Part shown: piece after piece, positions 13,114-32,715 of the stretch | Position numbering within the stretch: the stretch's first letter is position 1 | How the letters are laid out: each line of letters begins with the position of its first letter | Assembly (NCBI GenBank): GCA_026386805.1 | Contig: JAPLMX010000015.1 | Span: 1 to 33,342 of the forward strand | Length of the DNA: 33,342 bases | Reading direction: 5' to 3' | Origin: Phycisphaerae bacterium | GTDB taxonomy: Bacteria; Planctomycetota; Phycisphaerae; Sedimentisphaerales; Anaerobacaceae | Made by a program: the position numbers and the translations under genes | Notes under the pieces: model-generated | Seen by the model: the letters and a program-made list of their open reading frames with translations, nothing else | What the model was told of the DNA's origin: nothing | Database searches by the model: none

Positions 13114-15252
13114 GGAACGTCGGGGATTTGCTCGAATCGGTGGATTGGCACGAGGCGAGCTTGTGGGCGCGTGTCCGGGCTGGGCCGGGCTGCTCTGGAT
13201 CAGCGGCGGCGGCCGCACCAGCAGGGGTTTGTCGATGTGGATGAATTCGACCATCGGCAGCGTCTGTTTGAGACGGGCGATCGTCTCGGGCCGAATCGGC
13301 TCATCGGTCTGCACGGTGAGCGACCACAAAGAAGGAAGTGCCGGCAGGCGGACCAGGGCGGCATCTGTGATCCGGCCCTGCAGGTTGAGATCTCTGAGTT
13401 TCTTCAACCCGCCCAACGACGCGAGGCCTTCGCTGCTCGAACAGGAAATCCCCGTGAGAAGCAGGACCTCCAATTCGGGCAATGCCTTCAGGTGCAGCAA
13501 AGCTTTCTCTGTGAAGGCGCCGCCGGTGAAGATGCCGCCGTCGATTTCCAACCGCTGCACGTGGCGCAGGTCCGCCAGAGACGCCAGGTCCTCATCGTGC
13601 AGCGGCAAACCGCGCAGGTACAGAGTCGTCACACTCGTTAAACCAGACAGATTGAGTGGTATTTCATCTACTCCCCCCGAGAGGCCGGAAGGCACCGCCA
13701 CGCTCAGGGTCCGGAGGTTCGTCAGGTCGCCCAATTGGTTCAAGCCTCGCTTGCTCACGGGGACCAGAAGGTTCAGCGACTCCAGGGATTTTATCTTGTT
13801 GATCGTCGTCATGCCGCGGTCGCCCATGCGTTCGCCCATGAGGGACAGGCTCTTGAGATGGGTGAGAGGCTCGAGGCGAGCCAGGTCTTCATCGGACAAG
13901 GCTCGGGCGCCGTTCAAGTCGAGTTCCTCCAGGGAGTCCAGGGCCGCCAAGTCCGGTAGGCCTGTCGGGCCACGGTAGCCTTGCCGGTAGTCTTTCATCA
14001 TGATGTCCAAGTGATGGGCGTTGCGGATGGTAGTGAGGGTCCGCACCCCCTCGGCGGAGAGAAAGCCGGTCCCTGCCAGGGATTCGAGATGAGGCAACGG
14101 GGCCAGCAGACGAACGACTTCGTCGCCGTACCGCGCGCCCTCGGGACTGCTCCACGTTCCCGCAAAGTCCACTTCTCTGAGGTTCTTCAGGTTCCGCAAG
14201 TGGATAACGCCGGTGGGGGTGAACTTGGGACTGGTCCGGACAAAGTAGAGTTCCTCAAGATCCTTGAGCTTTCCTATGGAGGCGAGACTGGCATCGGTCA
14301 GACTGTCGGCCACCCCCCACAGGGTCAGACTCTTGAGGTGCGACAGGCCCTCCAGATATCGAATATGCTGATCCGAAATTTCGCTAACGCCCCAGAGGCA
14401 CAGACGTTCCAAATGGGGCAGGTTGGCCAGCTCGGCCAGCCCCGGCCCGCGGATCCTGCCGGTCCGCACCCTCAGCCAGCGCAGGCTGGGCAGTCGCCCC
14501 AAGTGCTTGAAACCAGCGTCGGTGGTGGCAGTTTCGAGGTCCAGGTACTCCAGGGCGGGCAGTTCCTTGAGCACGGCCATGCCGGCGTCCCCAACTCCAT
14601 CCTCTCTGAGTTCCAGAGACCGGAGGGATCGTAGTCCTCGGAGGTGCTCCAGACCTTTGTCGGTCGCCCCTGTCTTTTGCAGGAGCAACATCTGCAAGCC
14701 CGCCAGACGCGCGATCGGCTCGAGCACGCCCTGGTCCGCATTCGCTCTGGGAACCAAGGAGTAGATCTGGAGCCGGCACAGACCGTTCGGGTCAAGCCCG
14801 GAGAGTCCCGACAGATCGTTGGGATCTTCGCGACACCGGTCGGTGCCAAACATCTTGTATTGCCGAGGTGGCAGCGCCGCCAATTTCGCGGCGTCCTTCT
14901 CCGGGCGCCGCAGGTAGACAAGAAGCTGGATGCTGCGATCGGCGGGCACGGCCACGTCGTTCTGAGCCACGCCGACGAGCTTCCAGTCTGTGCGGAGAGC
15001 CAGCAACATGCGGTCGAGACCCCCGGGCAGAACCGGATCGAAGCGATTCGTGCGGTACTGACCTCCCGACGTCCAATCCTCCACTTGCAGGGTCCCCACG
15101 TGTTGATCCTTCGGGAAGTGCAGGACCTTGGTTGCAGCGACGGCCGGACCGGCGCCGGGCGCCGAGGTCTCCTTGGCTCGCAATCCCGCGGCCAGGCTGC
15201 ACGCGGCTATCATCGTCGCCACGATGGCACGGCCACTCGCTTTCATGTCCAT
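13108..15252 (-). CDS. Secreted leucine-rich-repeat protein, LRR-C
   Basis: 714 residues; GGAGG lies nine bases before the ATG at 15252. Signal peptide at 1-25 (IVATMIAACSLAAGLRA). Next comes a conserved N-terminal domain, residues about 38-110, opening VLHFPKDQHVGTLQVEDW and containing WKLVGVAQNDVAVPADRSI, shared with both neighbours. About 20 repeats of roughly 24 residues of the LxxLxxLxLxxTxxTDxGLxxL kind then follow, and a Pro-rich tail (SSPAQPGHAP). LRR solenoids bind proteins or glycans; the ligand is unknown. It is the last gene of the sigma-LRR-A-B-C operon, 25 bases after LRR-B. Its stop codon lies inside a palindromic repeat. Confidence 0.88.
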   Translation of the reverse strand: MDMKASGRAIVATMIAACSLAAGLRAKETSAPGAGPAVAATKVLHFPKDQHVGTLQVEDWTSGGQYRTNRFDPVLPGGLDRMLLALRTDWKLVGVAQNDVAVPADRSIQLLVYLRRPEKDAAKLAALPPRQYKMFGTDRCREDPNDLSGLSGLDPNGLCRLQIYSLVPRANADQGVLEPIARLAGLQMLLLQKTGATDKGLEHLRGLRSLRSLELREDGVGDAGMAVLKELPALEYLDLETATTDAGFKHLGRLPSLRWLRVRTGRIRGPGLAELANLPHLERLCLWGVSEISDQHIRYLEGLSHLKSLTLWGVADSLTDASLASIGKLKDLEELYFVRTSPKFTPTGVIHLRNLKNLREVDFAGTWSSPEGARYGDEVVRLLAPLPHLESLAGTGFLSAEGVRTLTTIRNAHHLDIMMKDYRQGYRGPTGLPDLAALDSLEELDLNGARALSDEDLARLEPLTHLKSLSLMGERMGDRGMTTINKIKSLESLNLLVPVSKRGLNQLGDLTNLRTLSVAVPSGLSGGVDEIPLNLSGLTSVTTLYLRGLPLHDEDLASLADLRHVQRLEIDGGIFTGGAFTEKALLHLKALPELEVLLLTGISCSSSEGLASLGGLKKLRDLNLQGRITDAALVRLPALPSLWSLTVQTDEPIRPETIARLKQTLPMVEFIHIDKPLLVRPPPLIQSSPAQPGHAPTSSPRANPPIRANPRRSP

Positions 15253-15277
15253 ATCGGTCTACCTCCAGATACAGGGA

Positions 15278-17380
15278 TCACGGCTGACGCGGGCGTGTCC
15301 CTCGATTCGGCTGATTGGCACGGGGCGGACGGGCCGGGACACGCCCGCGCTGGGCCGGGCTGCTCCGGATCAGCGGCGGATTGCTCTGCGGCGGTTTGTC
15401 GATGTGAATGTATTCGATCACGGGCAGAGTCTGCTTGAGACGGGCAATGGTCTCGGGCCGGATCGGCTCATCGGTCACGATCCGCAGCGACCACAGGGAA
15501 GGCAAGGCGGGCAGCCGCGCCAAAGCCGCGTCCGTGATCCGCCCGCTGATCGTCAAGTCTCCGAGTTTCTTCAACTCTCCCAGTTGGGCGAGACCTTCGC
15601 CATTCGGACAGGAGACCTCTTTGACGACCAGTCGCTTCAATTCGGGGAGGTCTTTCAGATGCCACAACGCACCTTCCGTGAAGGTGCCGTCCAGGATCAG
15701 CCATTGCAGATGTCGCATGCCCGCCAGGGACGCCAAGTCCTCGTCACGCAGAGACAGACCTTGCAGGGACAGAGTCTTCAAGTCTGTCAGGCCGGACAGC
15801 CTCAACGGGACCTCGTCCATCCCGCGGGTCCCGTACGGCCCCGGCATCACGCTAAGGGTCCGAAGCTGTGTCAGACCGTTCAATTGGTTGAGCCCACGCT
15901 TGCTCACGTCGGCCCAGAGATTCAATGACTCCAGTTCCTTCAACTTGCTGACAGCGGCCGTGCTGCGATCGGTCACGTCGTCCCCCCAGAGGTGCAGACG
16001 CTTCAAGCGGCTAAGGGACTCCAGGCCAGCCAAATTGTCATCGGAAAGCCGCACCCCCACGACGTTGCCCGTAAAATTGAGTTCCTCCAGGGACGTCAGC
16101 GCGAATAGAGAAGAGACGGCGCCCGGGGCCGTTCGGTCCTGAAGGAAGACATCAAGCGCTTTGAGGTTCTGGAAGGAAGCAAGTGTCTTGGCGGTGGCGG
16201 CGGTCAACGGCAGGCCGCCGTTGATGGTGGTCAGGCTGGGCATGGCCGCCAGGTGCCGCAGGCCGGCCTCGTCGAGCCGCACGTACGAGAGATCTACCTT
16301 CTTGAGGTTCTTTAAGCTCTTGAGGCGCGCGATTCCCGCGCTCGTGAATTTTGGCGCGGTCACGATGAAGTACAGTTCCTCCAGACTCTCGAGCTTGCTG
16401 AGGGAGGCGACGCTGGCGTCGGTCAGCGGGTCGGCCACGCCCCAGAGGGTCAGGCTCTTGAGGTGCGTCAGGCCTTCCAGGTATTGGATGTGCCGGTCGG
16501 AGATGTCGCTGCTACCCCAGAGGCACAACCGCTCCAGTCGGGGCAGGTGGGCCAATTCGGCCAAGCCCGGCCCCCAGATCCTTCCCGTTTGTATCCGGAG
16601 CCACCGGAGATTGGGCAATTGTCCCAGGTGTCTCAGGCCCGCGTCCGTGACGGTGGGGCCCAGGTCCAGGTACTCCAGGGCGGGCAGGTCCTTGAGCACC
16701 GCCCAGCCGGCGTCGCCGACCCCGGCCTCTGTGAGTTCCAGGGACTGGAGCGACCGCAGGCTACGGAGGTACTCCATCCCTTTGTTCGTCACTCCCGTCC
16801 GGTTCAGGCGGAGCATTTTCAGGCCTGTCAGACGCGATAGCGGCTTGACCACCCGCTCATCCGCGTAGGTCCTTTCCCCCAAGGAGCCAACGAAGAGCAT
16901 GCCGAGGTCATTCGGCTCGAGGCCGGACAATCCGGACAGGTCATCCGGATCCGCAAAGCACCGGTCACGCAAGTTGGGATGCACCAATTCCGACGACTTG
17001 GGTTTGAGCAGGATGCGCAGGGCAATATCCCGATTTGCGGGCACGGTCACGTCGCCGCGAGCTACGCCCACGGATTCCCAAGACGTGTCCAGGGCCAGTC
17101 GTCGCGAGTCCATCGCCCAAGGCAAGGAGGGATCGAAGTTGCGTTGCATATACTCGCTTCCGGGAGTCCGATCCTCAACGGATAATACTCCCAGAGACTG
17201 GTCTCCGGGAAAGTGCAGCACCTTGGCTGGGGCGGGACCGGCGGTGGACGCCGGCAAGCCCGTGGCGCGTAGGCCGCCGACCAAGACGCAGGCCGCTGTC
17301 AGCGCCGCCACGACGAGGGGACCCCAATCGCGAAATATCGCGATTGGGAACCCGATTCGACCATCCGCTCTCACGTCCAT
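15278..17380 (-). CDS. Secreted leucine-rich-repeat protein, LRR-B
   Basis: 700 residues with the same architecture as LRR-C: signal peptide, the VLHFPGDQSLGVLSVEDRT domain (with WESVGVARGDVTVPANRDI), about 20 LRR units (for example GLKMLRLNRTGVTNKGMEYL) and the Pro-rich tail SSPAQRGRVPARPP. Against LRR-C (MDMKASGR then AIVATMIAAC) the N-terminus reads MDVRADGR, then twelve extra residues IGFPIAIFRDWG, then PLVVAALTAAC. The insertion is a 36-bp palindrome (17317-17353) and lies just before the signal core. The start is the ATG at 17380, with GGAG eleven bases upstream. It follows LRR-A after 97 bases. Confidence 0.88.
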   Translation of the reverse strand: MDVRADGRIGFPIAIFRDWGPLVVAALTAACVLVGGLRATGLPASTAGPAPAKVLHFPGDQSLGVLSVEDRTPGSEYMQRNFDPSLPWAMDSRRLALDTSWESVGVARGDVTVPANRDIALRILLKPKSSELVHPNLRDRCFADPDDLSGLSGLEPNDLGMLFVGSLGERTYADERVVKPLSRLTGLKMLRLNRTGVTNKGMEYLRSLRSLQSLELTEAGVGDAGWAVLKDLPALEYLDLGPTVTDAGLRHLGQLPNLRWLRIQTGRIWGPGLAELAHLPRLERLCLWGSSDISDRHIQYLEGLTHLKSLTLWGVADPLTDASVASLSKLESLEELYFIVTAPKFTSAGIARLKSLKNLKKVDLSYVRLDEAGLRHLAAMPSLTTINGGLPLTAATAKTLASFQNLKALDVFLQDRTAPGAVSSLFALTSLEELNFTGNVVGVRLSDDNLAGLESLSRLKRLHLWGDDVTDRSTAAVSKLKELESLNLWADVSKRGLNQLNGLTQLRTLSVMPGPYGTRGMDEVPLRLSGLTDLKTLSLQGLSLRDEDLASLAGMRHLQWLILDGTFTEGALWHLKDLPELKRLVVKEVSCPNGEGLAQLGELKKLGDLTISGRITDAALARLPALPSLWSLRIVTDEPIRPETIARLKQTLPVIEYIHIDKPPQSNPPLIRSSPAQRGRVPARPPRANQPNRGTRPRQP
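17317..17353. repeat. Palindromic element inserted in frame in LRR-B
   Basis: Arms CCCAATCGCGA (17323-17333) and TCGCGATTGGG (17338-17348) are perfectly complementary around AATA, and GGGG/CCC extensions lie outside. The same plan, GGGTTCCC, then CGCG, ATTTCGCG and TTGGGG, occurs at 29166-29204, and a more worn version lies at 24265-24300. Comparison with the paralogous gene start shows directly that this copy is an insertion. Confidence 0.85.
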
Positions 17381-17477
17381 CTCGATTCATCTCCGGCTCT
17401 TGATCTTACCCCGAGAACACAATAGAACGAACCACGATTCCAGAAACTGGATCCCATGTGTCTCCGATCCCGCGGGT

Positions 17478-19607
17478 TCACCGTTGCCGCGGCGGGGCCG
17501 GCGGGTTGCTTCGACGGGGACTGTTGCGGATTGGTCCCTGCCGTCCTGAAGAGGGCTTGGTTTGGGCCTTGTCAAACTCCGGCAGCGGGTACAGATGGAG
17601 GTACTCGAGGGCGGGCAAGGTCCGTTTGAGGCAGTCGATCGTCGCGGGGCGAATCGGCTCATCGGTCCATGCCGAGATGGACCAGGCGGAAGTCACACTC
17701 GCCAACTGGCCCAAGGCGACGTCCGTGATTCGCCCCCGGAGCGTCAGGTCCCGCAAACCTGTCAGTCCCGCCAGGTGGGCCAGGCCACTGCCGTCCGAGC
17801 AGTTGACCTGGCTTACGTCGAGGTGCTTCAGGGCGGGCAAGTCCTTCAAATGCCGCAAGGCCGTCTCGGGGAGAACCACGCCCTGAAGCAGGATCAGCTC
17901 AAGCTGATGGAGGCCACTCAGGCAGACCAGGTCGCCACTGTCCAGCGCGAATCCGTCCAGATGGCAGGACTTCAGACTCTTCAATCCCGCAAGGTTCAGC
18001 CTGATCTCGTCAATCGCGGGCCTCCCATCCGGATGTACCCAAACATGGAGGGTTTGGAGGTTTGTCAGGCCGCTCAGTTCGTTCAATCCTCTCTTGGTCA
18101 TTGCGCTATCCGTAGAAACCGTCAGGTGCTCCAGTCGGCGCAGCTTGCCGAGGGAAGTCATACCGCGGTCGGTCACACCATTGAATCCGACGAGTAGATC
18201 CCGCAAATGGCCGAGGGATTCCAAGTGGACCAGATCGGCGTCGGACAAACACTGATTGCCGGTGAGGGCGAGTTCCTCCAGGTTGCTCAGCCCGGCCAAG
18301 TGAGATACGCCTGTGGGACCGTGGTAGTTTTGGAACCGATCCTTCAGGGTGACGTGCAGGCATCTGAGGTTCCGCATGGTGCCCAACGTCTTCATGCCCT
18401 CGGCGGACAGATAGCTGATTCCCTTGATCGATTCGAGACTGGGCATGCCCGCCAACTGACGTGCGATTTCATCGCCATGCTCCGCACCTTGAGGACCAGC
18501 CCACGTCAAGGCGAAGTCCACCTTCCTGAGGTTCTTCAAGTCCTTCAAGCAAGCCACGCCTGCCGGGGTGAATCTCGGCATGGTCATGATGAAATACAAT
18601 TCCTCAAGGCTCTTGAGCTTGCTGATGGAGGCTAAGCTGGCGTCGGTCAGATTGTCGGCCACCCCCCAGAGGGTCAGGCTCTTGAGGTGTGTCAAGCCTT
18701 CCAGGCACTGGATGTGCCGGTCGGATATTGGAATGGAGTCACAGATGCACAGCCGTTCCAGCCGGGGCAGGTTGGCCAACTCGGTCAGGCCGGGACCCCA
18801 GATCCTTTTCGCGCGGATGTGCAACCAGCGCAGGCTGGGGAATTGCCCCAGGTATTTGAAACCCGCGTCCGTGGCGCCGGTATCAAGACACAGGTACTCC
18901 AGGTTGGGCAGGTCCTTCAGCACCGCCAGCCCCTGGTTTCCGACGAAGGGCTCTTGTTCGAATTCCAACGCCCGGAGCGACCGCAGCTCCCGGAGGTGTT
19001 CCATCCCCTTGTCGGTCACCCCTGTGCCATACAGTTTCAGAACCTTCAGACCCGTCAAATGGCGGATCGGTTGGAGCACGCACTGGTCCGCATCCGCCCT
19101 GCGGACGAGGCTGGAGATATCCAGACAGTACAGATCGTTCGGCTCCAGAGCGGACAACCCCGAGAGGTCCGGCGGGCCTTCGCGGCACCGGTCTGTGCCG
19201 AATATCTTGTACTGACGAGGCGGCAGTGCGGCCAGCTTCCCGGCGTCCTCTTTCCTGAGCTGCAGCCCGATCCTCAATTGGATGTTCCGACCGGCGGGCA
19301 CACTGACGTCGCCCTGGGCGAAACCGATGAAGTCCCGGTCGCCGCCCAGCGTCAGACCGTTCGGGCTCAGCCCATAAGGCAGGGAAAGATCGCGGCCCAA
19401 CTCCATGTACGTGCTCCCCAGGCACGGGTCCTCGACATACAGACTCCCCATGTACCGGTCCCGCGGGAAATGCAGGACCCTGGCGGAGGCCGCCGAGCTG
19501 CTACCCGCTCGAACAGCCGCATCGGCCCGTGTCCCTGTGACCAGAATCGACGCCGCGAGCACGATGATGTCCAAACCCGCCTGACGGCAGAGCTTCTCAT
19601 TCCTCAT
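17478..19607 (-). CDS. Secreted leucine-rich-repeat protein, LRR-A
   Basis: 709 residues from the ATG at 19607, chosen because GGAGG lies eight bases upstream and a signal peptide follows (AGLDIIVLAASILVTGTRA); the frame is open further upstream, but that region is sigma-gene sequence. The N-terminal domain opens VLHFPRDRYMGSLYVEDP and holds FIGFAQGDVSVPAGRNIQLR. It shares PPRQYKIFGTDRCREGP with LRR-C, so A and C are closest in that segment. About 20 LRR units follow, then a tail rich in Pro/Arg. It is the first LRR gene after the ECF sigma gene (29-base gap), so it is almost certainly co-transcribed with it. Confidence 0.88.
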   Translation of the reverse strand: MRNEKLCRQAGLDIIVLAASILVTGTRADAAVRAGSSSAASARVLHFPRDRYMGSLYVEDPCLGSTYMELGRDLSLPYGLSPNGLTLGGDRDFIGFAQGDVSVPAGRNIQLRIGLQLRKEDAGKLAALPPRQYKIFGTDRCREGPPDLSGLSALEPNDLYCLDISSLVRRADADQCVLQPIRHLTGLKVLKLYGTGVTDKGMEHLRELRSLRALEFEQEPFVGNQGLAVLKDLPNLEYLCLDTGATDAGFKYLGQFPSLRWLHIRAKRIWGPGLTELANLPRLERLCICDSIPISDRHIQCLEGLTHLKSLTLWGVADNLTDASLASISKLKSLEELYFIMTMPRFTPAGVACLKDLKNLRKVDFALTWAGPQGAEHGDEIARQLAGMPSLESIKGISYLSAEGMKTLGTMRNLRCLHVTLKDRFQNYHGPTGVSHLAGLSNLEELALTGNQCLSDADLVHLESLGHLRDLLVGFNGVTDRGMTSLGKLRRLEHLTVSTDSAMTKRGLNELSGLTNLQTLHVWVHPDGRPAIDEIRLNLAGLKSLKSCHLDGFALDSGDLVCLSGLHQLELILLQGVVLPETALRHLKDLPALKHLDVSQVNCSDGSGLAHLAGLTGLRDLTLRGRITDVALGQLASVTSAWSISAWTDEPIRPATIDCLKRTLPALEYLHLYPLPEFDKAQTKPSSGRQGPIRNSPRRSNPPAPPRQR

Positions 19608-19636
19608 GGTTGTTGCCTCCGCAAGACAAGACGATG

Positions 19637-20977
19637 TCATTGATCGAGCTTCAGGAGCTTCCAGCGGCTGTCCACTCGGATTAGCCGGGAGCACAGCGGC
19701 ACGAATTCGCCCGGCAGACGCTCCTTTCCCTTGTAGGAGAACGGCGTGCGGGCGGTGGCCTCCCATGTGACTTGAGCGGTGTCGCCGTCCTGCGCCACTT
19801 CGACGAGCCGGATGGGATAGCCGAGATCGCGAGGGAACGGGCTGTCCGCCGCGACCTGGGCCCCTTCGGCGAGGCATTCGCCCAGTTCGTCTGTTGCCCC
19901 CTGGTCGATCAGGGTCAAGAAGCTGTACACCACCGCCTCCGGGGTCCTCAGATCAGCGGTGGGGACCCCACTGAACGGGTCTCCCACGGACATGCCGCCC
20001 ATACCTTGCACGTCTTGCGAAGGCCCGAACGGTCCCAGGAGAGGCTCCGGCGTCGGTGTCTGCTCGGCCGCAGAGGTTGCGGCGGCCGCCTTGACTTCGC
20101 CCTGCGCCGCACGGGCGGTTGTGACGCGCCCTACGGAGGGGGACTGGCTGCTGTTGCTTCTCGGTGCGGTTTGCCGGACGATACCCGCCGGGGCGGAGGA
20201 CTGTGCGCCCGGCTCAGGGCCGCGTAAGTGATGAACATAGCTTATCACCGACGCGGCCGCTACGACGGCTACCGTGGCAAGCACGACTTTGACCGTGTTG
20301 GCGCTGATGGCAATGGTTGCCTTGCCGCTCAGAGCCACGGATGTGCCCGTGGTGCCGACCATTGCCATCTTGCTCAGTCCGGCACAGACCGCTGCCGGGA
20401 CGGCTTGCGAGGTGTTCTCCATCAGCATCGTGCCGAGCGCGGCGGCGCCTACGAGCAATCCCTGCCGCCGGAGCATACCCCGCAATTGTCCCAGACCCTC
20501 ATTGATGCGGCGCGAGACAGTTGCCTGGGAGATGCCGTGCTCCTGGGCGATCTGCCCGGTAGTCTTGCCGGCCAGAAAGCGATCCAGCAACAGGCGCCTC
20601 ACGGACTCATCCAGCTTCTCCAGGGCTTCATCGACGCAGCCGGAAAGATCGCGCCACGTTTGGGCTTCCACGGGCTGGGTCTGGGCATAGGTTTGCTCCC
20701 GATTCCTCCGGTGCGTCCGGCGGCGAATCACGTCAATGGATTTCTGCGTGGCCACTCGGTGGAGCCAGCCGCTCAGCGGTCCCGTGATCCGGTCTGCCTG
20801 ACGCGTCAGCTCGAAGAAGGTCTCCTGGGTCACGTCCGCGGCGTCGGTTTCGTGTCTCAGAACTCGCCAGGAGGCCCAGTAGACCAGCCTGGCGTATCGA
20901 TGCACCAATTCGGTGAAGGCCTCGGCGTCGGCCCGTCGCGAGAACCGCTCCAACAAGACTGCGTCGTTCTCTGGCAT
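19637..20977 (-). CDS. ECF sigma factor with membrane anchor and extracytoplasmic domain
   Basis: 446 residues from the ATG at 20977 (GGGGAG nine bases upstream). Sigma region 2 lies at about 18-90 (ELVHRYARLVYWASWRVLR, DVTQETFFELTRQ, WLHRVATQKSIDVIRRR) and region 4 at about 115-170 (LDESVRRLLLDRFL, TGQIAQEHGISQATVSRRI). A weakly hydrophobic linker follows, then a clear membrane helix at 228-248 (VKVVLATVAVVAAASVISYV). After it comes a Pro/Ser/Ala-rich linker and a final domain at about 345-446 (TPEAVVYSFLTLIDQGATDE, GDTAQVTWEATARTPFSY) resembling NTF2-like/DUF4878 folds. Such C-terminally extended ECFs are known in planctomycetes. Release from the membrane, presumably by proteolysis, would be needed for full sigma activity (inference). 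It heads the operon with three LRR genes. A possible -10 (TAGAAT) lies about 40 bases upstream. Confidence 0.88.
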   Translation of the reverse strand: MPENDAVLLERFSRRADAEAFTELVHRYARLVYWASWRVLRHETDAADVTQETFFELTRQADRITGPLSGWLHRVATQKSIDVIRRRTHRRNREQTYAQTQPVEAQTWRDLSGCVDEALEKLDESVRRLLLDRFLAGKTTGQIAQEHGISQATVSRRINEGLGQLRGMLRRQGLLVGAAALGTMLMENTSQAVPAAVCAGLSKMAMVGTTGTSVALSGKATIAISANTVKVVLATVAVVAAASVISYVHHLRGPEPGAQSSAPAGIVRQTAPRSNSSQSPSVGRVTTARAAQGEVKAAAATSAAEQTPTPEPLLGPFGPSQDVQGMGGMSVGDPFSGVPTADLRTPEAVVYSFLTLIDQGATDELGECLAEGAQVAADSPFPRDLGYPIRLVEVAQDGDTAQVTWEATARTPFSYKGKERLPGEFVPLCSRLIRVDSRWKLLKLDQ

Positions 20978-21070
20978 TTGCCTATCTCCCCGGCTCTTGC
21001 GGAATACCCACGATTCTATCATAGAGCCGCAGTGCGACGGGGAATTATTCAGGAATTCGGGGTAGTCAAC

Positions 21071-21109
21071 TGGTACACATGGTGGCCCACGGATCAATAA
21101 GTGGTCCAT
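21071..21109. mobile_element. Possible IS21-family terminal repeats (remnant)
   Basis: Three related words, TGGTACACA (21071), TGGCCCACG (21083) and TGGTCCATA (21102), are spaced irregularly, as are the multiple TGGYCCA terminal repeats of IS21-type elements. No transposase gene is present. The stretch sits immediately before the broken 5' end of the hydG-like gene, so an IS-mediated deletion is plausible. The assignment is by resemblance only. Confidence 0.35.
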
Positions 21110-24416: not shown

Positions 24417-24448
24417 CATCAACGGCCCGGTAGAAAGCTAAGAAGGAA

Positions 24449-24785
24449 AGCCACAGAGGTCACAGAGGAACACAGAGAAGAGGGAAGGCAGGAAGGAAAA
24501 GGGGCGTTCCGACGTTCTTACCTTTCTGCACGGCAAAGGTGCAACATCTTGTTATTTTGACAAGCATCTTTGTGTCTCACCCAAAGCGGCTGAGGTGCAA
24601 AGTAGGGCGAGCGTCCCCGCTCGCCTAAAGAAGTCGTGCGGGGACGCACGATCTACTTCCTCGCGGTTGCCCTTTGTGTCTTCGTGGCTTTGTGTGAGGG
24701 GATTTTGGTTGCGGCGGAGCGGAGCGAAGCCGCGCTGCGTTCTTATCTTTCTTTCTTCTCTGTGTTCTCTGTGCCCTCTGTGGCT
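24449..24785. repeat. Inverted CACAGAG-type repeats enclosing a repeat nest
   Basis: The left arm at 24449-24481 (beginning AGCCACAGAGG) and the right arm at 24754-24785 are almost exact reverse complements over about 32 bases: CCACAGAGG, CACAGAG, AACACAGAGAAGA. Between them are a cloverleaf repeat copy and CTTTGTGTC/CTTCGTGGC words. I see no gene between 24417 and 24936; apart from these repeats nothing is recognised there. Confidence 0.75.
24600..24658. repeat. Cloverleaf-like palindromic repeat, copy 2
   Basis: Outer stem AAGTAG (24600-24605) / CTACTT (24653-24658), hairpin GGCGAGCG/CGCTCGCC with loop TCCC (24606-24625) and hairpin CGTGCG/CGCACG with loop GGGA (24635-24650). It is the same plan as 13055-13113 with compensatory change in the outer stem. 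Confidence 0.8.
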
Positions 24786-24936
24786 AAAACCACGGTTTAG
24801 CCTTATAGCGGATCATTGTTTTTCATACGTGTCTATTGCGCCTCCTGTATACGCAGCGTGCGTCACGCGGCCGGGGGCCGAAGAATTCCTGTCACATTTC
24901 TCCTTGCCGGGTTTCTTTTAAGGAGAAGAGGTTACA

Positions 24937-27900
24937 ATGGTCCTGGTTTGCGACGGGGGACTTGCGATGTTCGAGAGATCGAAGAACGACATCGAATTGC
25001 TGCGGGCCAGTCTCAACGGCAGCCCGAAGGCGTTCGGGGTCCTCGTGGACCGGTATCAATCCCTGATCTGTGCCATCACCTACAGCGCGACCGGCAGCGT
25101 GGAGCGCAGCGAAGAGCTGGCCCAGGAGGCCTTTCTGCGGGCCTGGAAGAGTCTCGGTCAGCTCCAGGACATGAGCAAGTTCCGGGTGTGGCTGTGCCGC
25201 ATCGCGCGAAGCACGGTGCAGAACTGGTTCCGCGACCGCAATCGCGACGTCATCGGCCGGGCGGCCCCTCTCGACTGGGCCGCGGACAAAGCATCGGACG
25301 AATCCGGACCTGAAGAGGCAGCCATGATCCAGGAACAACAAGCGGTCGTCAGCCAGGCCCTGGCCGAGATCCCGGAGTCTCTGCGGGAGCCCTTGGTGCT
25401 TTTTTACCGCGAGCAGAAGTCCATCCGGGAGGTGGCGGAGCAATTCAGCCTCACCGAGAACGCGGCCCGGCAGCGCATCTCCTGCGGGCGCAGCCTGCTT
25501 CGCAAGCAGGTGGCCCATGTCGTGGAATCCACCCTCGCCCGCAGCCGGCCGGGAAAGGCGTTCACCGCCGCCGTGGTTGCGTGCATTGCGGGCACGGTGG
25601 TCAAGAGCTCCGCGGCGGTTGCGGCCGTGGGGGCGGCGCACGCGGCCGCGGCGGCCGGCAAGTCGGTCGGCCTCGTCTCGCTTCTGTCGGGTGCCACGGC
25701 CAAGATGGCGGCGGTGGCGGCCGGCCTGGCGCTTGTCACCGGCGGCCTTCTCGCCTACCGGCAGCTCGCGAAGGCCACGGAACCCGCCGGTCGAACCTTC
25801 ACGATGGCAGTGGTCTCTCCGGAACTCGTGGCGGAGGACCGCCCAAGCACGTCGGTGGCGACGAGGGGTGCCATCCTGGACGCGATACCGGTGGCCGAAA
25901 ATGTTCCCGTCTCGCCCGCAACGCCCGCGCCCGCGCCGGTAGTGGGCGAGACCCTGGCCGCACGCACGCGTGTCCGGCAGGACCTGGCCGCCCAGACTGC
26001 TCCCAAACCGTTTGAGTTTCAGCCCCGGGGCGTGCTCAGCGGTCTGGTCACCGATGCCCAGACGGGCGAGCCCGTCCGGGATGCTCTCGTGCAGATCACG
26101 ATGGGCCGGGTCTACCACGCCCGGACCGACCCGAACGGCTTCTACAGCCTCGAGACCATTCCGCAGGCCGGCAACGCCTCCGTGACTGTGGACTCGAAGG
26201 AGTACGTGGGAGTCTCGCGCCAGGACCCGAGCCCGGTAGTGATTCATCTAAGTCCGGACCGGCAGACCGTGCAGCATTTCCCATTGCGGCGGGCTTGCCT
26301 GGTGGATGTGCGGGTCGTGGACGCCCACGGCGTCGGCATCAAGGACGCCTACGTTGCCGCCGCGTCTCTGGCCGATCAGTACGGGCGAGCCGTGAGCTAC
26401 TTCAGCGACTATCGCCCCACCGATCCGAATGGCTACGTCCTGCTCGGTGGTCTTCCGCCCTCCCGGAGCGATTATCTGGTCACCGCGTGGCACACCGTCG
26501 AAATCGGCGTGGAGAAACGCGGCAGCATCTCGTGGACCCGCACCGAGTACGATTATGCCCCGGCCCGGGCCGTCGTTTCCCTGACGGACCCGAACGTCGT
26601 CTCGCAGGTGCAGATCGTGCTGGCCCGCGGCCCGGAGGTGCAGGGTTTCGTCCAGTACGCCGACGGTGTGCCGGTCCAGGGCGTCGAGGTCGCCGCCACG
26701 CCGGTCTGGTGGCACTCGACTCACATCGGGCCGACGTGCAAGGTGGATGAGAAGGGGATGTTCACGCTGAAGCAGATCGTCCCCGGGGCCTACAATATCG
26801 ACCTGTACACACCTTTCGGGGACTCCGGCAGCACGAGCCGGACGCTGATGCAGACCCAGCTTCCGCCGGCGAATGACGAGCCCCTGATCCTTCGACTGGA
26901 CCGGCCGTCGCCGCAGGCGCTGGTGACTATCAGCGGCACGGTGGTGTTCCGGGGAGAAAAGAAGCCGGGCTACCTCCACATCGAGGCGTATCCCTCCTCC
27001 TCCGGCGTTCCGAGCGCTCGTGGGGACGTCAAACGCAAGGCGAACGGCGAGATTGACGACACGTTCACGGTCGAGGGCCTGGAGCCGGGGACGTACACGC
27101 TGGAGTTCTCCGGCGAGGACCTCGAAGACGTCCGCGTGCCCAACGTGACCGCGCCGAAGTCGGACCTCCAGGTCGAGATGGTGTACGCGCTCCGGCCCAA
27201 GCTCACGGGCACCGTGGTGGACGCCCGGACCGGCGCTGCGGTGAAGGACGTGCAGGTGCGGGCCCGGATGCTCCGCCCGCTGCGCGGCAACCGCTATGCT
27301 CAGCCGAGCCGATGGACTCACGCTGCCAACGAGCAGGGGAGTTTCAGCGTCGATACCGTCGGGCCGGGGATCTACCAGGTGCAGGCGCGCGCCGACGGCT
27401 ACGCCCCGGGCTGGAGTGAAGAGATCAATACGGACCAGACTCGGCAGGCAGTCATCGCGCTGTCCGTCGGCGGGGCGGTGACGGGGCGGGTGCTCGACGA
27501 AAAGGGCCGGCCGCTCGACCGAGCGAAGGTGATCCCGCTGTCCAGCGCCGGGGTGCGGACCGGAGGCGCGTTCCTGTCCGAGGATGGCGCGGTGGAGACG
27601 GTCGCCGGCGCGTTCACGCTGAACCATCTGCCGGCTGGGACCGAGACGCTCAAGATCGTGCACCCGGACCATGCGCCGGCGGTCGTGGAGGAGATCCAGG
27701 TGCTCGAAGGCCAGACGACGGAGGGTGTGGTGGTCGCTTTGGCCGAGGGTGGCACGGTCGAGGGCTACGTGTACGACGACCGTGGCGTCGCGCTGGCCGG
27801 GGAGGGCATCTACGTCCAGGATGAGCCCGGCGACTTCGGGAGCGAGGAAGAGGCGGCGCGGCGCTTGGGCACGGCCGTCACGGACGCCAACGGCTTCTAT

Positions 27901-29085
27901 CGCGTGGCGCACCTGCCGGCGCAATTGTGCTATCTGAAACGGGCCAACGCGTGGAAAGGCGTGGGGGTCGTGCGCCGGGCGGTCGTCCCGCAGGACGCGC
28001 GGACAACGCGGCTGGATTTTGGCGGCACGCCGGTCGTCCGTGGGACCGTTGTCATTGACGGGACCCCGCTGGCCAAGAGCCGGATCGTGCTAAGCTCCAC
28101 CGACTCGGCCCGCCCCGGGGTCCAGGTGTGTCGCGCTGTGACGGATGAGCGCGGCGGGTTCGTCTTCCCCGGCGTGGCGCCGGGAGCCTACGTCATCTAC
28201 CGCGACCCGAGCGGAATGTCGGGTTCCTTGCAGAACATCGCGACGGTCCACGTCAGCGGTGCGAACGTCGATCTCGGCGTCATCCCGCGTTCCTCCTCGA
28301 AACTGGTTGTGACTGTCAGCGGTGCCGAGGCGTCACAGCCGGGAGAGATTTCCGGGGTCCTGCTGATGGAACGCGGCAGAGTCTTCACGACGGTGGGCAG
28401 CACGGATACGCCTGCGCAGGCGGGAGGGCCCTGGATTCTCCCGGAGGTCGAACCGGGCTCGTATACCCTCGCCGTAGTCCGCCGGGACCGCCTCCAATGG
28501 CGAAAGGACGTTGATTTGGAGGCCGACCGGCGCCAATGGGAAGTCTCGCTGGACGTGCCGAATGCGAAGGGCCGCCTGTCGGGGCACGTCAATAATGGCG
28601 GCACGAGGCAGCCGCTGGCGCTGTGGCGTGAATCGCGCGATCTTCTGGGGACGGTCTGGCCGGGACAGGACGGCGTCTACAGCGTCGAGAACCTTCCGGC
28701 GGGCCGGTATTTTGTGGGCGACTACTCGTGCTTTCTGTACGGAGCGCCGCCGACCACCGAGTTTCTTCTGGGCGAGAGCGAGAGCAAGGTGCTCGATCTG
28801 GACCTGTCGGAGCCGTCCGGCAAGACCGCCATTCTGGTCGTCCATGTGGCCGATGAGTTCGGACGAACGCCTGCCGGCGTACGCGTCTGGCTGGCGGGAC
28901 CGGCGGGCACCGTCGAGCCTATCACGGCTGAGGCTGGTCTGTGCTTCACCGTGGTGTCCGGCGGGTACACCCTGCACGCCCAGGCCCCCGGCTACGGCGG
29001 GACGCAGAGAGAAGTCACGCTCAAGCCGTATGACGGGGAGGCCGGCTCGCCGCAGCGGATCACCGTCTGCCTGGAACCCAGGTGA
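24937..29085 (+). CDS. Giant ECF sigma factor fused to extracytoplasmic beta-sandwich array
   Basis: 1382 residues from the ATG at 24937 (GGAG eleven bases upstream); the ATG at 24967 (MFERSKND) is the more usual ECF start and has GGGGG upstream. Sigma region 2 lies at about 32-105 (LVDRYQSLICAITYSA, SEELAQEAFLRAWKSL, RVWLCRIARSTVQNWFRD) and region 4 at about 141-192 (IPESLREPLVLFYREQKSI, EVAEQFSLTENAARQRI). An Ala-rich hydrophobic stretch at 208-245 and a membrane helix at 256-275 follow. From about 365 to the end there are nine or so carboxypeptidase-regulatory-like/CNA-B-type domains (signature GxVxDxxTGxPVxxAxV, then DxxGxFxLxxxxPGxYxL), for example starting near 365, 566, 661, 753, 845, 939, 1031 and 1298. 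The sigma part is therefore cytoplasmic and the 1100-residue rod presumably outside. No anti-sigma gene is adjacent. Confidence 0.88.
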   Translation: MVLVCDGGLAMFERSKNDIELLRASLNGSPKAFGVLVDRYQSLICAITYSATGSVERSEELAQEAFLRAWKSLGQLQDMSKFRVWLCRIARSTVQNWFRDRNRDVIGRAAPLDWAADKASDESGPEEAAMIQEQQAVVSQALAEIPESLREPLVLFYREQKSIREVAEQFSLTENAARQRISCGRSLLRKQVAHVVESTLARSRPGKAFTAAVVACIAGTVVKSSAAVAAVGAAHAAAAAGKSVGLVSLLSGATAKMAAVAAGLALVTGGLLAYRQLAKATEPAGRTFTMAVVSPELVAEDRPSTSVATRGAILDAIPVAENVPVSPATPAPAPVVGETLAARTRVRQDLAAQTAPKPFEFQPRGVLSGLVTDAQTGEPVRDALVQITMGRVYHARTDPNGFYSLETIPQAGNASVTVDSKEYVGVSRQDPSPVVIHLSPDRQTVQHFPLRRACLVDVRVVDAHGVGIKDAYVAAASLADQYGRAVSYFSDYRPTDPNGYVLLGGLPPSRSDYLVTAWHTVEIGVEKRGSISWTRTEYDYAPARAVVSLTDPNVVSQVQIVLARGPEVQGFVQYADGVPVQGVEVAATPVWWHSTHIGPTCKVDEKGMFTLKQIVPGAYNIDLYTPFGDSGSTSRTLMQTQLPPANDEPLILRLDRPSPQALVTISGTVVFRGEKKPGYLHIEAYPSSSGVPSARGDVKRKANGEIDDTFTVEGLEPGTYTLEFSGEDLEDVRVPNVTAPKSDLQVEMVYALRPKLTGTVVDARTGAAVKDVQVRARMLRPLRGNRYAQPSRWTHAANEQGSFSVDTVGPGIYQVQARADGYAPGWSEEINTDQTRQAVIALSVGGAVTGRVLDEKGRPLDRAKVIPLSSAGVRTGGAFLSEDGAVETVAGAFTLNHLPAGTETLKIVHPDHAPAVVEEIQVLEGQTTEGVVVALAEGGTVEGYVYDDRGVALAGEGIYVQDEPGDFGSEEEAARRLGTAVTDANGFYRVAHLPAQLCYLKRANAWKGVGVVRRAVVPQDARTTRLDFGGTPVVRGTVVIDGTPLAKSRIVLSSTDSARPGVQVCRAVTDERGGFVFPGVAPGAYVIYRDPSGMSGSLQNIATVHVSGANVDLGVIPRSSSKLVVTVSGAEASQPGEISGVLLMERGRVFTTVGSTDTPAQAGGPWILPEVEPGSYTLAVVRRDRLQWRKDVDLEADRRQWEVSLDVPNAKGRLSGHVNNGGTRQPLALWRESRDLLGTVWPGQDGVYSVENLPAGRYFVGDYSCFLYGAPPTTEFLLGESESKVLDLDLSEPSGKTAILVVHVADEFGRTPAGVRVWLAGPAGTVEPITAEAGLCFTVVSGGYTLHAQAPGYGGTQREVTLKPYDGEAGSPQRITVCLEPR

Positions 29086-29217: not shown

Positions 29218-31755
29218 TTACTGCTTGATCACCTGGATGTCGTCGATGAGGAGGCGGCCGGCGCCGCCGGGGACGGTGGCCTTACGGTCGCCGACCCCGA
29301 GGTACAGTTTCTTGACCTCGGTTACGCTCACGCCGGCGAGGCTGCTGAGTGGAACCTTCCATTGGGTCCAGGCCGCCGTCAGTACCGCCGCCGGGTCGGG
29401 GTGGGTGACCACGGCCACCTGGCCGGCGCTGTCCTCAACGGCCAAGTACAGTCTCTCGGGCGTGTTGCCGATCTGCGGATCGCTCCCGATCCCGATCGTC
29501 TGCCACAGATCGAAGACGCCGCCGGTGATCGTGACGTGGGAGAATTCCGCCGTGCTGATCTTCGCGGCGTCGTGGCTGGTCACCGCCAAGCCGACGTAGA
29601 CGCTGGTCCCCATCGGGATGGTGGTGTCCGTACCCACTTGGGTCCAGGTTTTGCCGTCCATCGAGTACTCCGCCTTAAAGACGTTTTCCGTGCGCGTCAA
29701 CTTGACCCAGTAGGGCACGGCGAGACTGCCGATGTTGGTCTGGGCGCTCGTGCCGGCGGTGGCGGTGCGATAGGGGAAGGACACGCCGTTCGACGGGGTC
29801 ACGACGACCGCCGCGTGCCTGGAGTCGGCCTCGAGAGTCTCTCGGATCATCACGCCGGCCTTGGCCCAGCCGTTCGTGTTCGTCTGGCTATCGACGCGGG
29901 CCGTGATCGAGCCGTTGCCGCTGAGCTTCTTGTAGGCGAAGCGGAAGGCGTCGGCCGCGTTCCAGATGTCGTTGCCGCTGCCGCTGACGGTGAAGGCGTT
30001 ATTGCCATTGTTGGCGAAGGCGATCGGATAGCCCCGGAACCACAGGCTCAGATCCGTGACGCCGTAGCCCGTCCAGTCCTGCAGGGCGTCAAAGGTCCGC
30101 TCGGTTTCGCTGAAGTAATGCGTCGGACCGGCGTTGTGGTAGGCCAGGGGCATCGACTGCCGGCCGCCGTGAACGATCGTCTGCTCGGCAAACGGCGCCG
30201 GGTCGTTGCCCACGACGGAACCGCTGTCGTCGCCGAAGTTGTCGAGCCACGTGTCGTAGATGCGGTGATCGGCGTCGTCGTAGCTCTCGAACTCATCGAC
30301 GATGAGGCAGCCGGGGACGGTGAAGGACCAAGCGTAGCCCTTGCGGAGGGTGGTGCCGTCGGCCTTGACCTCGTCGATGCGCCAGAAATAGCTGCCGCCG
30401 CCGAACTGGACCCGCCCGGCCAGATCGAGGCTGGTGCCGGACTGGCGGCCCTGGTACAGCGGGGAGGTCGTGTCGGCGGTCTGGACGGCATCCTTGTCCT
30501 GGCCGAAGTAGACATCATGTTGGGCCGCCTGCTCGCCCGCCGACCACTGCAGGTCCGTGGCGTCGCGGATGTCCAAGTTGGCGCCCGTCGCGGGCTGCGG
30601 GGCCCAGGCAAATAGCGGGTCGCCCACCATGACCTTCCGGATCTCCTCCTCGGTCAGGGCCTTGTTGTAGACCCGCACGTCATCCATCAGGCCGAGCCAG
30701 TAATAGGCACTCCGGTAGGTCTCGCGACCGAGCATGAGAACGCCGGTCGAAACGCCGGCCACCTCGGCCGTCGCCAGCTCGCGATCCAGCTTGCCGTTGA
30801 TATAGGTCCGCAGGGCCTTGCCCTTGTCATAGACGCCCGCCACGTGGTACCAGGTGTTCGTCCGCAGGGCGGTTCCGCCCGGCGTGGTGCGGTTGAGGGT
30901 CGCGGCGTTGGCGGACGAGCGAATCTCGAACTCGGCCATGTTGTTGCTGCTGTAGACGCCGAGCTTGTAGCCGCCGGTCGCGTCATTCTGGTTGCTGGCG
31001 ATCTTCTGGTCCCGGCCGACGGCGCCCAGCCTGACCCAGGCGGCCACCGAGACGGAGTCCACGCTGGTCAGGCTGGCGTCGTTGCCGCACGTGACATAAT
31101 CGTCTGTGCCGTCGAAGGACAGGGCATCGCCCAGATAGCCGTCCACGAACTCCGGCCCGTTCATGAGCGTGCCGTAATTGTCATAGCCGGAGTAGTCGGC
31201 CGCCACGCCGCACTTCTCGTCGTCCATCTTCCACCAGCCTACCAAGCTGGGATCGGCCTTGGCGATGACCGGGCGGACGGTGAAGCTCCAGACGGGGCCG
31301 GGCACGGTGCCGCCGATGACATTCTCATCCACTCTCCAATAGTACACTTTCCCACGTTCCAGCGCGCGGGGCGTATACGAGCTCATCGTCTGCTTCTCGG
31401 CCACCTGGGCGGTTGCCGCGCCGGACTCGACGGCCGCACGATCGCTGCTGAGGTAGACATCGTGGGTCACGGCGTTCCTCCCCGCCGTCCATTCAAGAAC
31501 GGTATTGGGAGCGACGTAAGCCGCGCCGTCACTGGGACTTGGTGCCCAAGCGGGCGTCAGTGCCGCGGCCAAACTCCATGCGTCCCCGGTGAAGACCGTG
31601 CCATCCGCGTCGATCTCGTCGATTCTCCAGAAATAGGGGGTGTCCGGTTTCAAGCTTGGTGGGGAGGAATAGAACGGCTGTACGTACATCTGCTTGGCCT
31701 GGGCCAGGCCCAAGGTCAGCAGCAGGAGACTTACACAAACGGACTTCCTGCACAC
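29218..31755 (-). CDS. Secreted LamG-domain surface protein
   Basis: 845 residues if started at the GTG at 31755, which has GGAAGG about nine bases upstream and begins a signal peptide (MCRKSVCVSLLLLTLGLAQA); the frame is open to an ATG at 31827 but that adds a charged, non-signal segment. Domains: two fibronectin/Ig-like units with YFWRIDEIDADGTVF and YYWRVDENV near 25-165; a LamG jelly roll near 170-365 (LVGWWKMDD, ALSFDGTDDYVTCG, WYHVAGVYDKG, GLMDDVRVYNKALTEEEI); another YFWRIDEVKADGT unit near 370-480; a DUF1349-like beta-sandwich near 590-740 (WAKAGVMIRETL, PYWVKLTRTENVFKAEYS); and a C-terminal domain WTQWKVPLSSLAGVSV. The first WRIDE unit lacks its usual front half, suggesting an internal deletion. 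Role: probably surface carbohydrate binding. Confidence 0.85.
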   Translation of the reverse strand: MCRKSVCVSLLLLTLGLAQAKQMYVQPFYSSPPSLKPDTPYFWRIDEIDADGTVFTGDAWSLAAALTPAWAPSPSDGAAYVAPNTVLEWTAGRNAVTHDVYLSSDRAAVESGAATAQVAEKQTMSSYTPRALERGKVYYWRVDENVIGGTVPGPVWSFTVRPVIAKADPSLVGWWKMDDEKCGVAADYSGYDNYGTLMNGPEFVDGYLGDALSFDGTDDYVTCGNDASLTSVDSVSVAAWVRLGAVGRDQKIASNQNDATGGYKLGVYSSNNMAEFEIRSSANAATLNRTTPGGTALRTNTWYHVAGVYDKGKALRTYINGKLDRELATAEVAGVSTGVLMLGRETYRSAYYWLGLMDDVRVYNKALTEEEIRKVMVGDPLFAWAPQPATGANLDIRDATDLQWSAGEQAAQHDVYFGQDKDAVQTADTTSPLYQGRQSGTSLDLAGRVQFGGGSYFWRIDEVKADGTTLRKGYAWSFTVPGCLIVDEFESYDDADHRIYDTWLDNFGDDSGSVVGNDPAPFAEQTIVHGGRQSMPLAYHNAGPTHYFSETERTFDALQDWTGYGVTDLSLWFRGYPIAFANNGNNAFTVSGSGNDIWNAADAFRFAYKKLSGNGSITARVDSQTNTNGWAKAGVMIRETLEADSRHAAVVVTPSNGVSFPYRTATAGTSAQTNIGSLAVPYWVKLTRTENVFKAEYSMDGKTWTQVGTDTTIPMGTSVYVGLAVTSHDAAKISTAEFSHVTITGGVFDLWQTIGIGSDPQIGNTPERLYLAVEDSAGQVAVVTHPDPAAVLTAAWTQWKVPLSSLAGVSVTEVKKLYLGVGDRKATVPGGAGRLLIDDIQVIKQ

Positions 31756-32715
31756 CGTCGTTTTCCTTCCCCAAATGGATCGCCCTTGGCCATAGACCGC
31801 GCTATCACGGCGCCGACACACGATCACTTCTCCGACACCCTCTCATTCGACGATCTGTCCCGCCTGCTTGATCCGAATGGCCCTCCAGGCAACGCAACCG
31901 GCGTAATGGAAATGGCTGTTCGAGACTTGGGGTTCCTCCCGAGCCTGCGATTTCCATCTCGTCCATACCGCATCGGATGGCTCGCGTCAATGCTCTGGGT
32001 GGATATTCTCGGACGAAGCATATCCCGACAGACCGGGGGCATGATGCGGGGGGGGGACGCTCGCGGCGTGAGCCGTCCAGACGCCTCCTGCTTGGCGGCT
32101 CTATGGTCTCACGGGAGCCACCAAAAGCCTGCGAAGAAGAGGACAGGGGCCTTGACGGTGCCAGAAGCCCCCAGAGCGGGAACATAGAGTGGGCTGCGCC
32201 CACCGATCCATGCGAATCGAACCAATGAATAGCGAGCGCAGCCCGGCCTGGGAATTATGTCCACCGCTCCGCGTCCGTCCGAATCCAATGTCCAAGAGCC
32301 GATGATGTGCAACCAGTATCATGCAAGGTGTTTCCTCCGTTATCAATACTGTCACGAGGAGTTTCTCCCGAATTGCCGCAAAATACGTAGAAGTACGTAG
32401 GGTTTCGGGGACCACTGAGGGCAATTGCCATGAATTGTCACGACAACGACCGGCCCGGATCAGCGAAGGAAGATGAAAGGCGAACATGATCGGACCTGTA
32501 GGACTTCCGCCTTATCCTCGGAAACAGCGCTGATCCTTTCTGTCGCGTAGTGGATGAGAACAGAGCGGGTGCTGCTCTGAGTCACCGTAGCCTTGGTGTC
32601 ACCACCGCCTCGGCGTGGCGGTTATCTCGACAGCACCCATGAGGAAGGCGATTCTCGATGGGCGGATGTAGAGGGAAGGAGGCAGTTTCTCGTATCATCC
32701 CCGCCTCCTGCAAGT
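31756..32715. other. Gene-free stretch with repeat and motif remnants
   Basis: No convincing coding region on either strand: open frames here lack ribosome-binding sites and recognisable domains. It contains GTGGGCTGCGCCCAC (32189-32203), related to the palindrome at 8476-8490; a TACGTA-GAAG-TACGTA double motif (32384-32399); and the palindrome GGCAATTGCC nearby at about 32423. The rest is unassigned and may be decayed mobile DNA or a long regulatory region upstream of the LamG gene. Confidence 0.5.

Follow-up and report, generated by a model that had tools for sequence, protein, structure and literature searches.

Sigma factors of the extracytoplasmic function (ECF) class that are built into the membrane as one piece are already known, and the best experimental parallel for the gene reported here is IutY of P. 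putida. As presented in PMC5411451 and PMC8999054, IutY (ECF243) joins an ECF sigma factor, one transmembrane (TM) helix and an extracytoplasmic C-terminal part in a single polypeptide, and it is freed by Prc and RseP (PMC5411451). We analysed a stretch of 33,342 nucleotides (nt) from a Phycisphaerae bacterium (GenBank assembly GCA_026386805.1, contig JAPLMX010000015.1, positions 1 to 33,342; hereafter the window), in which an open reading frame (ORF) at 24937-29085(+) encodes a comparable order of parts ending in a long rod of carboxypeptidase regulatory-like (CarboxypepD_reg) modules. We consider it probable that this sigma-rod protein is a one-protein receptor, made of an ECF sigma factor, a TM helix and an 11-module rod that senses outside the cell, with the sigma factor likely freed by regulated proteolysis.

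The differences from the known systems are as instructive as the likenesses. The periplasmic part of IutY is described as a cell-surface-signalling anti-sigma domain working with the receptor IutA, in a protein of 374 amino acids (aa) as against 1372 here and with no CarboxypepD_reg rod; our Pfam scan, with matches reported up to E 0.01, showed no IutY-type periplasmic anti-sigma domain and matched the C-terminus as CarboxypepD_reg. The second parallel is SCO4117 which, with ECF52 and ECF53 of the Actinobacteria, is portrayed as an ECF sigma factor followed by a TM helix, a Pro-rich stalk and an extracytoplasmic binding domain (PMC5826349, PMC8999054); positive autoregulation was suggested for SCO4117, a member of ECF52 (PMC5826349). 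Both parallels carry an anti-sigma or zinc-finger domain; none was recognised in the sigma-rod protein. By these accounts ECF52 and ECF53 have a zinc-finger anti-sigma domain and ECF52 also a carbohydrate-binding module, neither of which Pfam found here: zf-HC2 gave no match up to E 0.01, and residues 197-253 hold a single Cys and hence no HxxxCxxC pattern.

Other ECF groups share single features with the gene. The ECF41 group, as reported in PMC3426412, combines a -35 element TGTCAC(A), a fused C-terminal regulator and a single detectable target. Its -10 element is given there as CGTC or TGTT, and the GGTTTCT predicted upstream of our gene departs from that -35/-10 pair; its extension is a regulatory domain without TM helix and rod, and its target is a COE gene, whereas here it would be the gene itself. 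The fused domain of ECF41 is described as small and SnoaL-like (PMC8103513), and scanning the sigma-rod protein with Pfam yielded no SnoaL-like domain. Long C-terminal extensions are also reported for ECF57 and other planctomycetal ECFs, and some ECFs from planctomycetes were found in fractions soluble in Triton or sodium dodecyl sulfate (SDS) (PMC8567305, PMC8999054). According to these sources some ECF57 members carry WD40 repeats; Pfam named none here, and it is in this feature that our protein differs from the description. In the RsgI/SigI systems of Clostridium thermocellum, several receptors for different substrates share one sigma-signalling design, and RseP cuts RsgI inside its TM helix (PMC12203970); as described there, these are two-protein, SigI-type systems with the sensors on the anti-sigma factor, while here the sensor is on the sigma factor. 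The rod-bearing version of a one-piece membrane sigma factor appears to be new, in that our literature search returned nothing pairing a sigma factor with a carboxypeptidase regulatory-like domain, a mention in the large ECF classification or planctomycete papers being possible.

Results

The sigma-rod gene and its family

The source genome comprises 5.55 Mb in 279 contigs at 93.5% completeness, and the window corresponds to contig 59. The ORF runs uninterrupted through 1382 codons without internal stop, and most of the relatives described below are of similar length. An earlier note on this DNA had proposed that ECF regions 2 and 4 and a CarboxypepD_reg rod belong to one polypeptide, and the unbroken ORF and Pfam, which names Sigma70_r2, Sigma70_r4_2 and CarboxypepD_reg within it, bear this out. 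Met 11 of the longest ORF (codon 24967) is nearly invariant across a 42-member family alignment, and because of this the protein probably has 1372 aa and starts at 24967, giving a likely coding sequence of 24967-29085(+); the database copy of the protein (P0001) also has 1372 aa. Residues are numbered here from the first codon of the longest ORF.

Sigma-70 region 2 occupies residues 36-103 (25042-25245(+); PF04542, 9.2e-14) and region 4 residues 138-185 (25348-25491(+); PF08281, 1.7e-7). The sigma part scored 82.9 bits with TIGR02937 (cut-off 42.9), had SigW, sigmaE and AlgU as its top Foldseek matches and contains regions 2 and 4 only, as is characteristic of ECF (group 4) sigma factors. Behind the membrane helix described below lie a poorly conserved Pro/Ala-rich stalk (residues 280-365, 25774-26031(+)) and a rod of 11 transthyretin/CarboxypepD_reg-like modules (residues 366-1382, 26032-29082(+)). 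The PF13620 profile matched the rod at 1.5e-57 and 192.4 bits, against a gathering score of 32.3, in six significant stretches, which makes it an array protein. The modules, of 86-111 aa each, start at residues 366, 453, 564, 662, 753, 846, 939, 1031, 1121, 1211 and 1297; in profile-profile comparison of family slices with hhalign every one matched at least three others at >90% probability, and the earlier count of about nine domains was therefore too low. Two large minus-strand ORFs, 24892-26247 and 26248-27924, overlap the gene antisense and are presumed by-products of a high guanine-cytosine content.

Protein searches, in which the best ~7990 candidates by shared words were scored (7991 for the sigma part), gave at least 118 relatives of residues 1-330 including the query, all 0.55-1.75 times the query in length. 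Among the matches listed, PF13620 was present in 105 of the 118, fusions of the kind that the earlier note proposed to survey, and 82 of the 118 were 1200-1420 aa long. Median identity of these 82 to the query was highest in the sigma part (61%), followed by the linker (46%), the TM segment (41%) and the rod (39%), and lowest in the stalk (17%; residues 276-366). Where organism names were given, they were Sedimentisphaerales, Phycisphaerae or Planctomycetota.

The homologues come from many contigs and show that the fusion is continuous, and one full-length copy sits on a chromosome record (CP070782.1). We take the sigma-rod fusion to be confirmed by these comparisons as a true family. That assembly or gene calling fused two genes has a next to negligible probability: a few relatives with a broken frame or short form (G061 C307, G005, G008) could be cited for it, but the many full-length relatives and the chromosomal copy already refute it. 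The G061 C307 copy (L050/L076) was considered as a true split and rejected, since it resembles a single gene with a broken frame. In the short forms L013/L078 (G005) and L077 (G008) the promoter, sigma part and TM helix are kept and the rod is mostly or wholly lost; the next gene, within 20 nt, encodes a subtilase in G005 and, in G008, a different protein that is also apparently exported.

Predicted membrane topology and the conserved linker

Hydropathy was counted in 84 of the 118 relatives, namely those in which a simple motif placed both candidate segments (34 were dropped). Mean Kyte-Doolittle (KD) hydropathy exceeded 1.6 in the second segment of all 84 and in the first, the linker segment, of 16. 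AlphaFold2, run on residues 1-300 with a 61-sequence alignment, returned a mean predicted local distance difference test (pLDDT) score of 77.8 and a predicted template modelling (pTM) score of 0.41, and the blocks of the two sigma regions scored between 89 and 98 in pLDDT (93-98 for region 2, 89-97 for region 4). The model then shows a 16-residue helix at 207-222 (pLDDT 68-77), disorder over about 224-253 and a long helix at 254-279 (pLDDT 54-74 by block); a single-sequence structure prediction reached pLDDT 42. The helix at residues 254-279 (25696-25773(+)) is the sole predicted TM helix, and its Gly269 is nearly invariant in the 42-member alignment. The earlier note had several membrane segments, of which a membrane part survives, as one predicted helix.

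The first helix (25555-25602(+)) carries the conserved linker motif PGKAFTxxV, and in most relatives it is too short and too polar to span the membrane; P205 and F209 are invariant and V213 nearly so in the 61 sequences. The protein is thus predicted to cross the membrane once, with the sigma factor in the cytoplasm and the rod outside, in agreement with the topology on which the earlier note relied; a charge pattern of the opposite sense is weighed in the Discussion.

The rod on other proteins

To follow the rod apart from its sigma factor, residues 351-1382 were searched at E <= 1e-30 in overlapping samples of genomes from the order, class and phylum, and the rod was found in 28 of 148, 12 of 298 and 9 of 392 genomes, respectively. 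Sites were counted over the loci of the order with duplicates of one site merged. Sigma factor and rod shared a single ORF at 19 distinct sites, a number that includes the G005 short form and the broken-frame G061 C307 copy. At 14 others the rod ORF overlaps or abuts a preceding stand-alone ECF gene (168-291 aa), and the remaining sites were contig-end cuts, secreted or unclear. These split rod ORFs encode a cytoplasmic N-terminus, one TM helix and then the rod, and the order sigma then rod is the same in fused and split sites. In 12 of the 14 split sites the gap between the two ORFs fell between -34 and +3 nt; the other two, where ORF starts are uncertain, gave -142 and -318.

Three split partners (L017, L029, L037) have an HxxxCxxC zinc-finger pattern before the TM helix, two of which zf-HC2 scored below its cut-off (E 0.022 and 0.014) and the third not. 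Other partners show two further kinds of short cytoplasmic N-terminus, in which Pfam named no N-terminal domain among the five scanned (L028, L034, L035, L036, L038). The N-termini of L034-L036, L038, L049, L051, L028, L055, L059 and L061 are candidate unrecognised anti-sigma domains. Our labels for N-termini (ASD-ZAS, ASD-PS, ASD-TL, ASD-FD, SECRETED) were set by motif and by eye and do not denote database families. A split copy from Anaerohalosphaera (P0181) carries the database annotation anti-sigma factor.

Outside the class, six Gimesia-like genomes of one genus have the rod on another protein type of about 1440-1500 aa (L152-L157). L152, the member that was scanned, proved to be a BlaR1 M56 protein (PF05569, 1.8e-43) with the rod at its C-terminus, and among the matches listed the nearest named relatives of these proteins, annotated as BlaR1 or MecR1, belong to Gimesia, with G. 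alba and G. panareensis among them. M56 receptors of the BlaR1/MecR1 kind signal by protease action to a repressor; the Gimesia proteins carry the same rod C-terminally, and unlike them our protein has the sigma factor itself as its output domain. Seven full-length rods start with an apparent signal peptide. On contig 10 of G054 two tandem rods (L048/L149) with apparent signal peptides occur with no sigma factor. L032/L060 was rejected as a secreted rod, its N-terminus being pilin-like and followed by a run of unknown bases.

Module 3 bears a P-x-W-W signature (residues 589-592, 26701-26712(+)), which was observed in 138 of 148 full-length rods from all contexts; among control ORFs of at least 300 aa it occurred in 4 of 812. 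Its persistence across these contexts suggests a shared site of action. Because rod homologues follow a TM helix, an M56 domain or an apparent signal peptide, a rod outside the cytoplasm with a sensor role is the natural reading, and the rod is probably an exchangeable sensor on the outside of the cell.

Phylogeny and the exchange of sensors

A rod tree was built from 66 rods, with 34 of 110 fused rods taken and 6 unclear rods left out, and in it the fused rods need nine state changes. For the topology test 5 long or divergent fused rows were removed from the 66; in this quick LG+G4 tree eight changes were needed, at least six of them forced by well-supported branches, and a single fused-rod clade was rejected (log-likelihood difference 900, approximately unbiased (AU) test p 7.3e-5). 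Since the fused rods do not form one clade, the rod moves between receptor types, the trees being compatible with either fusion or fission.

The sigma tree held 88 of 123 sigma domains, with many weak branches and several long rows. Thirty-three of the 34 fused sigma factors grouped with 40 PGKAFT-linker sigma factors that have other C-termini (support 97). All 14 split sigma factors fell outside this group, 13 of them clustering by the N-terminus type of their partner (supports 99, 93 and 87). The remaining fused protein, L147, has a distant sigma factor and a rod that groups with the M56 rods, and is apparently a separate fusion event.

Sensor swapping on one sigma-TM part is shown, at the level of sequence, by P0048 and P0049, which carry two different sensors: they are 78.5% identical over residues 22-328 and 1-307, respectively, and beyond these residues do not match at E 1e-3. 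Other C-termini on the same sigma type include a PQQ propeller, an alpha/beta hydrolase, HEAT, M16 and AhpC/TSA; among 34 scanned proteins of this type CarboxypepD_reg was found in 15. The same sigma factor and PGKAFT linker are widespread in records from Verrucomicrobiota (L086-L146), where the C-termini are hydrophobic and probably multi-span, many of the proteins having about 500 aa.

A predicted promoter before the gene

A predicted ECF-type promoter lies upstream of the gene at 24890-24916(+), with the -35 element TGTCAC at 24890-24895, a spacer of 14 nt and the -10 element GGTTTCT at 24910-24916. Among 86 distinct upstream regions of this sigma type (duplicates, short regions and genes open at a contig end having been removed), an exact TGTCAC was found within 130 nt upstream of 68 genes, including 14 of the 19 with a rod, as against 2.5% of 17,826 background windows. 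The exact TGTCAC-N14-GGTTTCT occurs once in its own genome; with one mismatch allowed there were 5 other sites there and 6 in the reversed control. Seven of 13 family genomes contain the exact pattern, once each and always immediately before the sigma-rod gene or the short form of it, and the reversed pattern was found twice over the 13. In the six genomes without it, the gene of G007 begins at the edge of a contig, the -10 element differs by one letter in G141 (GGTTCCT) and G061 (GGTGTCT), and G002, G003 and G006 yielded no full-length relative.

When the -10 element was loosened, the own copy remained the only site in G000, G001, G004 and G005, with one control match, in G001; G008, G117 and G129 gained 1, 3 and 3 extra sites against 0, 1 and 2 in the control. 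As a control of spacing, a pattern with the spacer one base shorter gave 2 one-mismatch sites in 7 genomes. As these copies stand only before the protein's own gene, autoregulation is the clearest prediction, and the pattern suggests that the protein mainly switches on its own gene. No further strong target was found in the 13 incomplete genomes, where weaker or shifted targets are possible. The paralogue L002 in the same genome has TGTCAC with a different -10 region, and the Verrucomicrobiota records L086-L146 share the TGTCAC upstream element with a different -10. Farther upstream, the intergenic region 24440-24800 holds repeats of the 'cacagagg' type, possibly a dispersed repeat.

Neighbouring genes and the rest of the window

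Sixteen loci were compared for genes recurring beside the fused gene; neighbours outside the window were compared with one another, and among them the Pfam scan covered the G005 subtilase only. The next gene in the window, 29218-31827(-), encodes a LamG protein and is convergent with the sigma-rod gene, and relatives of it were the only neighbours to recur, in 3 of the 16 loci. The earlier note had seen an envelope-signalling neighbourhood in the closeness of a Pal-like lipoprotein and a sigma-leucine-rich repeat (LRR) operon. Of 122 window ORFs listed, the 22 distinct ones scanned contained no Pal/OmpA-like or anti-sigma domain, and the sigma-LRR cluster (13108-21109(-)) lies about 3.8 kb away on the opposite strand; given how seldom neighbours recur, we rejected an envelope operon around the gene.

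In that cluster, 19637-21109(-) encodes a second C-terminally extended ECF sigma factor of 490 aa, which precedes three LRR proteins and has sigma regions, a hydrophobic segment and a weakly SnoaL_4-like C-terminus. An AbiEi/AbiEii-type toxin-antitoxin pair (PF13338/PF09407 and PF08843) lies at 11263-12863(-).

Discussion

From these comparisons we infer outside sensing, inhibition at the membrane and proteolytic release. At rest the sigma factor would be kept at the membrane, where the PGKAFT helix might mask it in place of an anti-sigma domain; this conserved helix is left as the silencing candidate because no anti-sigma or zinc-finger domain was recognised. Once a ligand bore on the rod, or damage did, site-1 and then site-2 (RseP/S2P-type) cleavage would follow, and the freed sigma factor would transcribe mainly its own gene from TGTCAC-N14-GGTTTCT, perhaps with a few weaker targets, so amplifying and resetting the receptor. 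Regulated proteolysis of the protein is plausible in view of the single predicted TM helix, its nearly invariant Gly269 and the proteases of the genome, and candidate proteases encoded in its own genome are M50 proteins on contigs 87, 230 and 244 and S41 proteins on contigs 32 and 216.

Several observations weigh against such a receptor. M50 matches also turn up in all 14 control genomes and S41 matches in 10 of them, so that the presence of these proteases in the own genome says little. Two or more positive residues lie within 15 residues after the TM helix in 63 of the 84 relatives, and positive residues are more numerous after the helix than before it in 67, a pattern unfavourable to an outside C-terminus under the positive-inside rule. 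The linker of the query, with a best 19-mer of KD 1.92, is as hydrophobic as its TM segment (1.70); its placement relative to the sigma factor in the AlphaFold2 model is weak, as the low pTM indicates; and the Pfam scan recognised no anti-sigma domain anywhere in the polypeptide up to E 0.01. Were the regulon limited to the strict motif, the receptor itself would be its only evident output. The sensor reading of the earlier note nevertheless keeps its core, in that a one-piece sigma-membrane-rod protein with an outside sensor role is favoured by the rod homologues; its neighbourhood argument falls away.

ToxR/CadC-type regulators are membrane-tethered and offer a model in which no cleavage is needed: the state of the rod would alter the linker helix, and the anchored sigma factor would bind core RNA polymerase. 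The invariant linker residues after region 4, which could form a conformational switch, and the lack, across the 16 loci, of a recurring neighbour family that could be a dedicated protease are in keeping with this; the one-piece IutY, however, is reported to be activated by proteolytic removal (PMC5411451) and SCO4117 autoregulation by truncation (PMC5826349), and we hold a tethered sigma factor to be unlikely. Less likely again, the rod might be chiefly a surface structure (an adhesin, scaffold or lattice spacer) with the sigma factor as a gauge that renews lost rod. The 7 genomes with the exact promoter have it only before the own gene or the short form, and rods also occur on apparently secreted proteins, as such a role would have it. 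Against this, the same rods take the sensor position on anti-sigma-like and M56 proteins, weaker promoters may have escaped the search, and two genomes keep promoter and sigma factor after losing most or all of the rod.

The charge pattern around the TM helix, together with a second hydrophobic stretch in the query (windows starting at residues 204-231), could instead reflect a two-span hairpin with a cytoplasmic rod that serves as a protein-protein scaffold, a role proposed for the WD40-carrying ECF57 sigma factors. The linker stretch is TM-like in just the 16 of 84 relatives noted above, its modelled helix spans 16 residues, and rod homologues follow apparent signal peptides or a single TM helix, so a hairpin seems very improbable to us. 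A wider proposal, which we offer tentatively and think rather unlikely as a whole, would combine a self-renewing surface protein with a portable cartridge: the own gene would be the only strong target, a rod cut, shed or pulled off would free the sigma factor to transcribe a replacement, and the rod would serve at least three receptor classes (the one-piece ECF, the ECF with a separate anti-sigma-like protein, and BlaR1/M56), each reading the same surface cue through P-x-W-W.

The family bears on the question of how ECF sigma factors lacking an adjacent anti-sigma gene receive membrane signals; many C-terminally extended ECF sigma factors are found in Planctomycetota and Verrucomicrobiota. Here one sensor module can be traced through one-piece sigma systems, two-piece sigma systems and M56 receptors, and a single sigma-TM part can be followed from one sensor to another. 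Anaerohalosphaera, with a two-piece system, and Gimesia, with the M56 version, are cultured hosts of related versions, and the natural chimeras, the predicted promoter and these named hosts make the signalling path testable. A sigma factor with its own gene as its clearest target would, moreover, be an unusual circuit.

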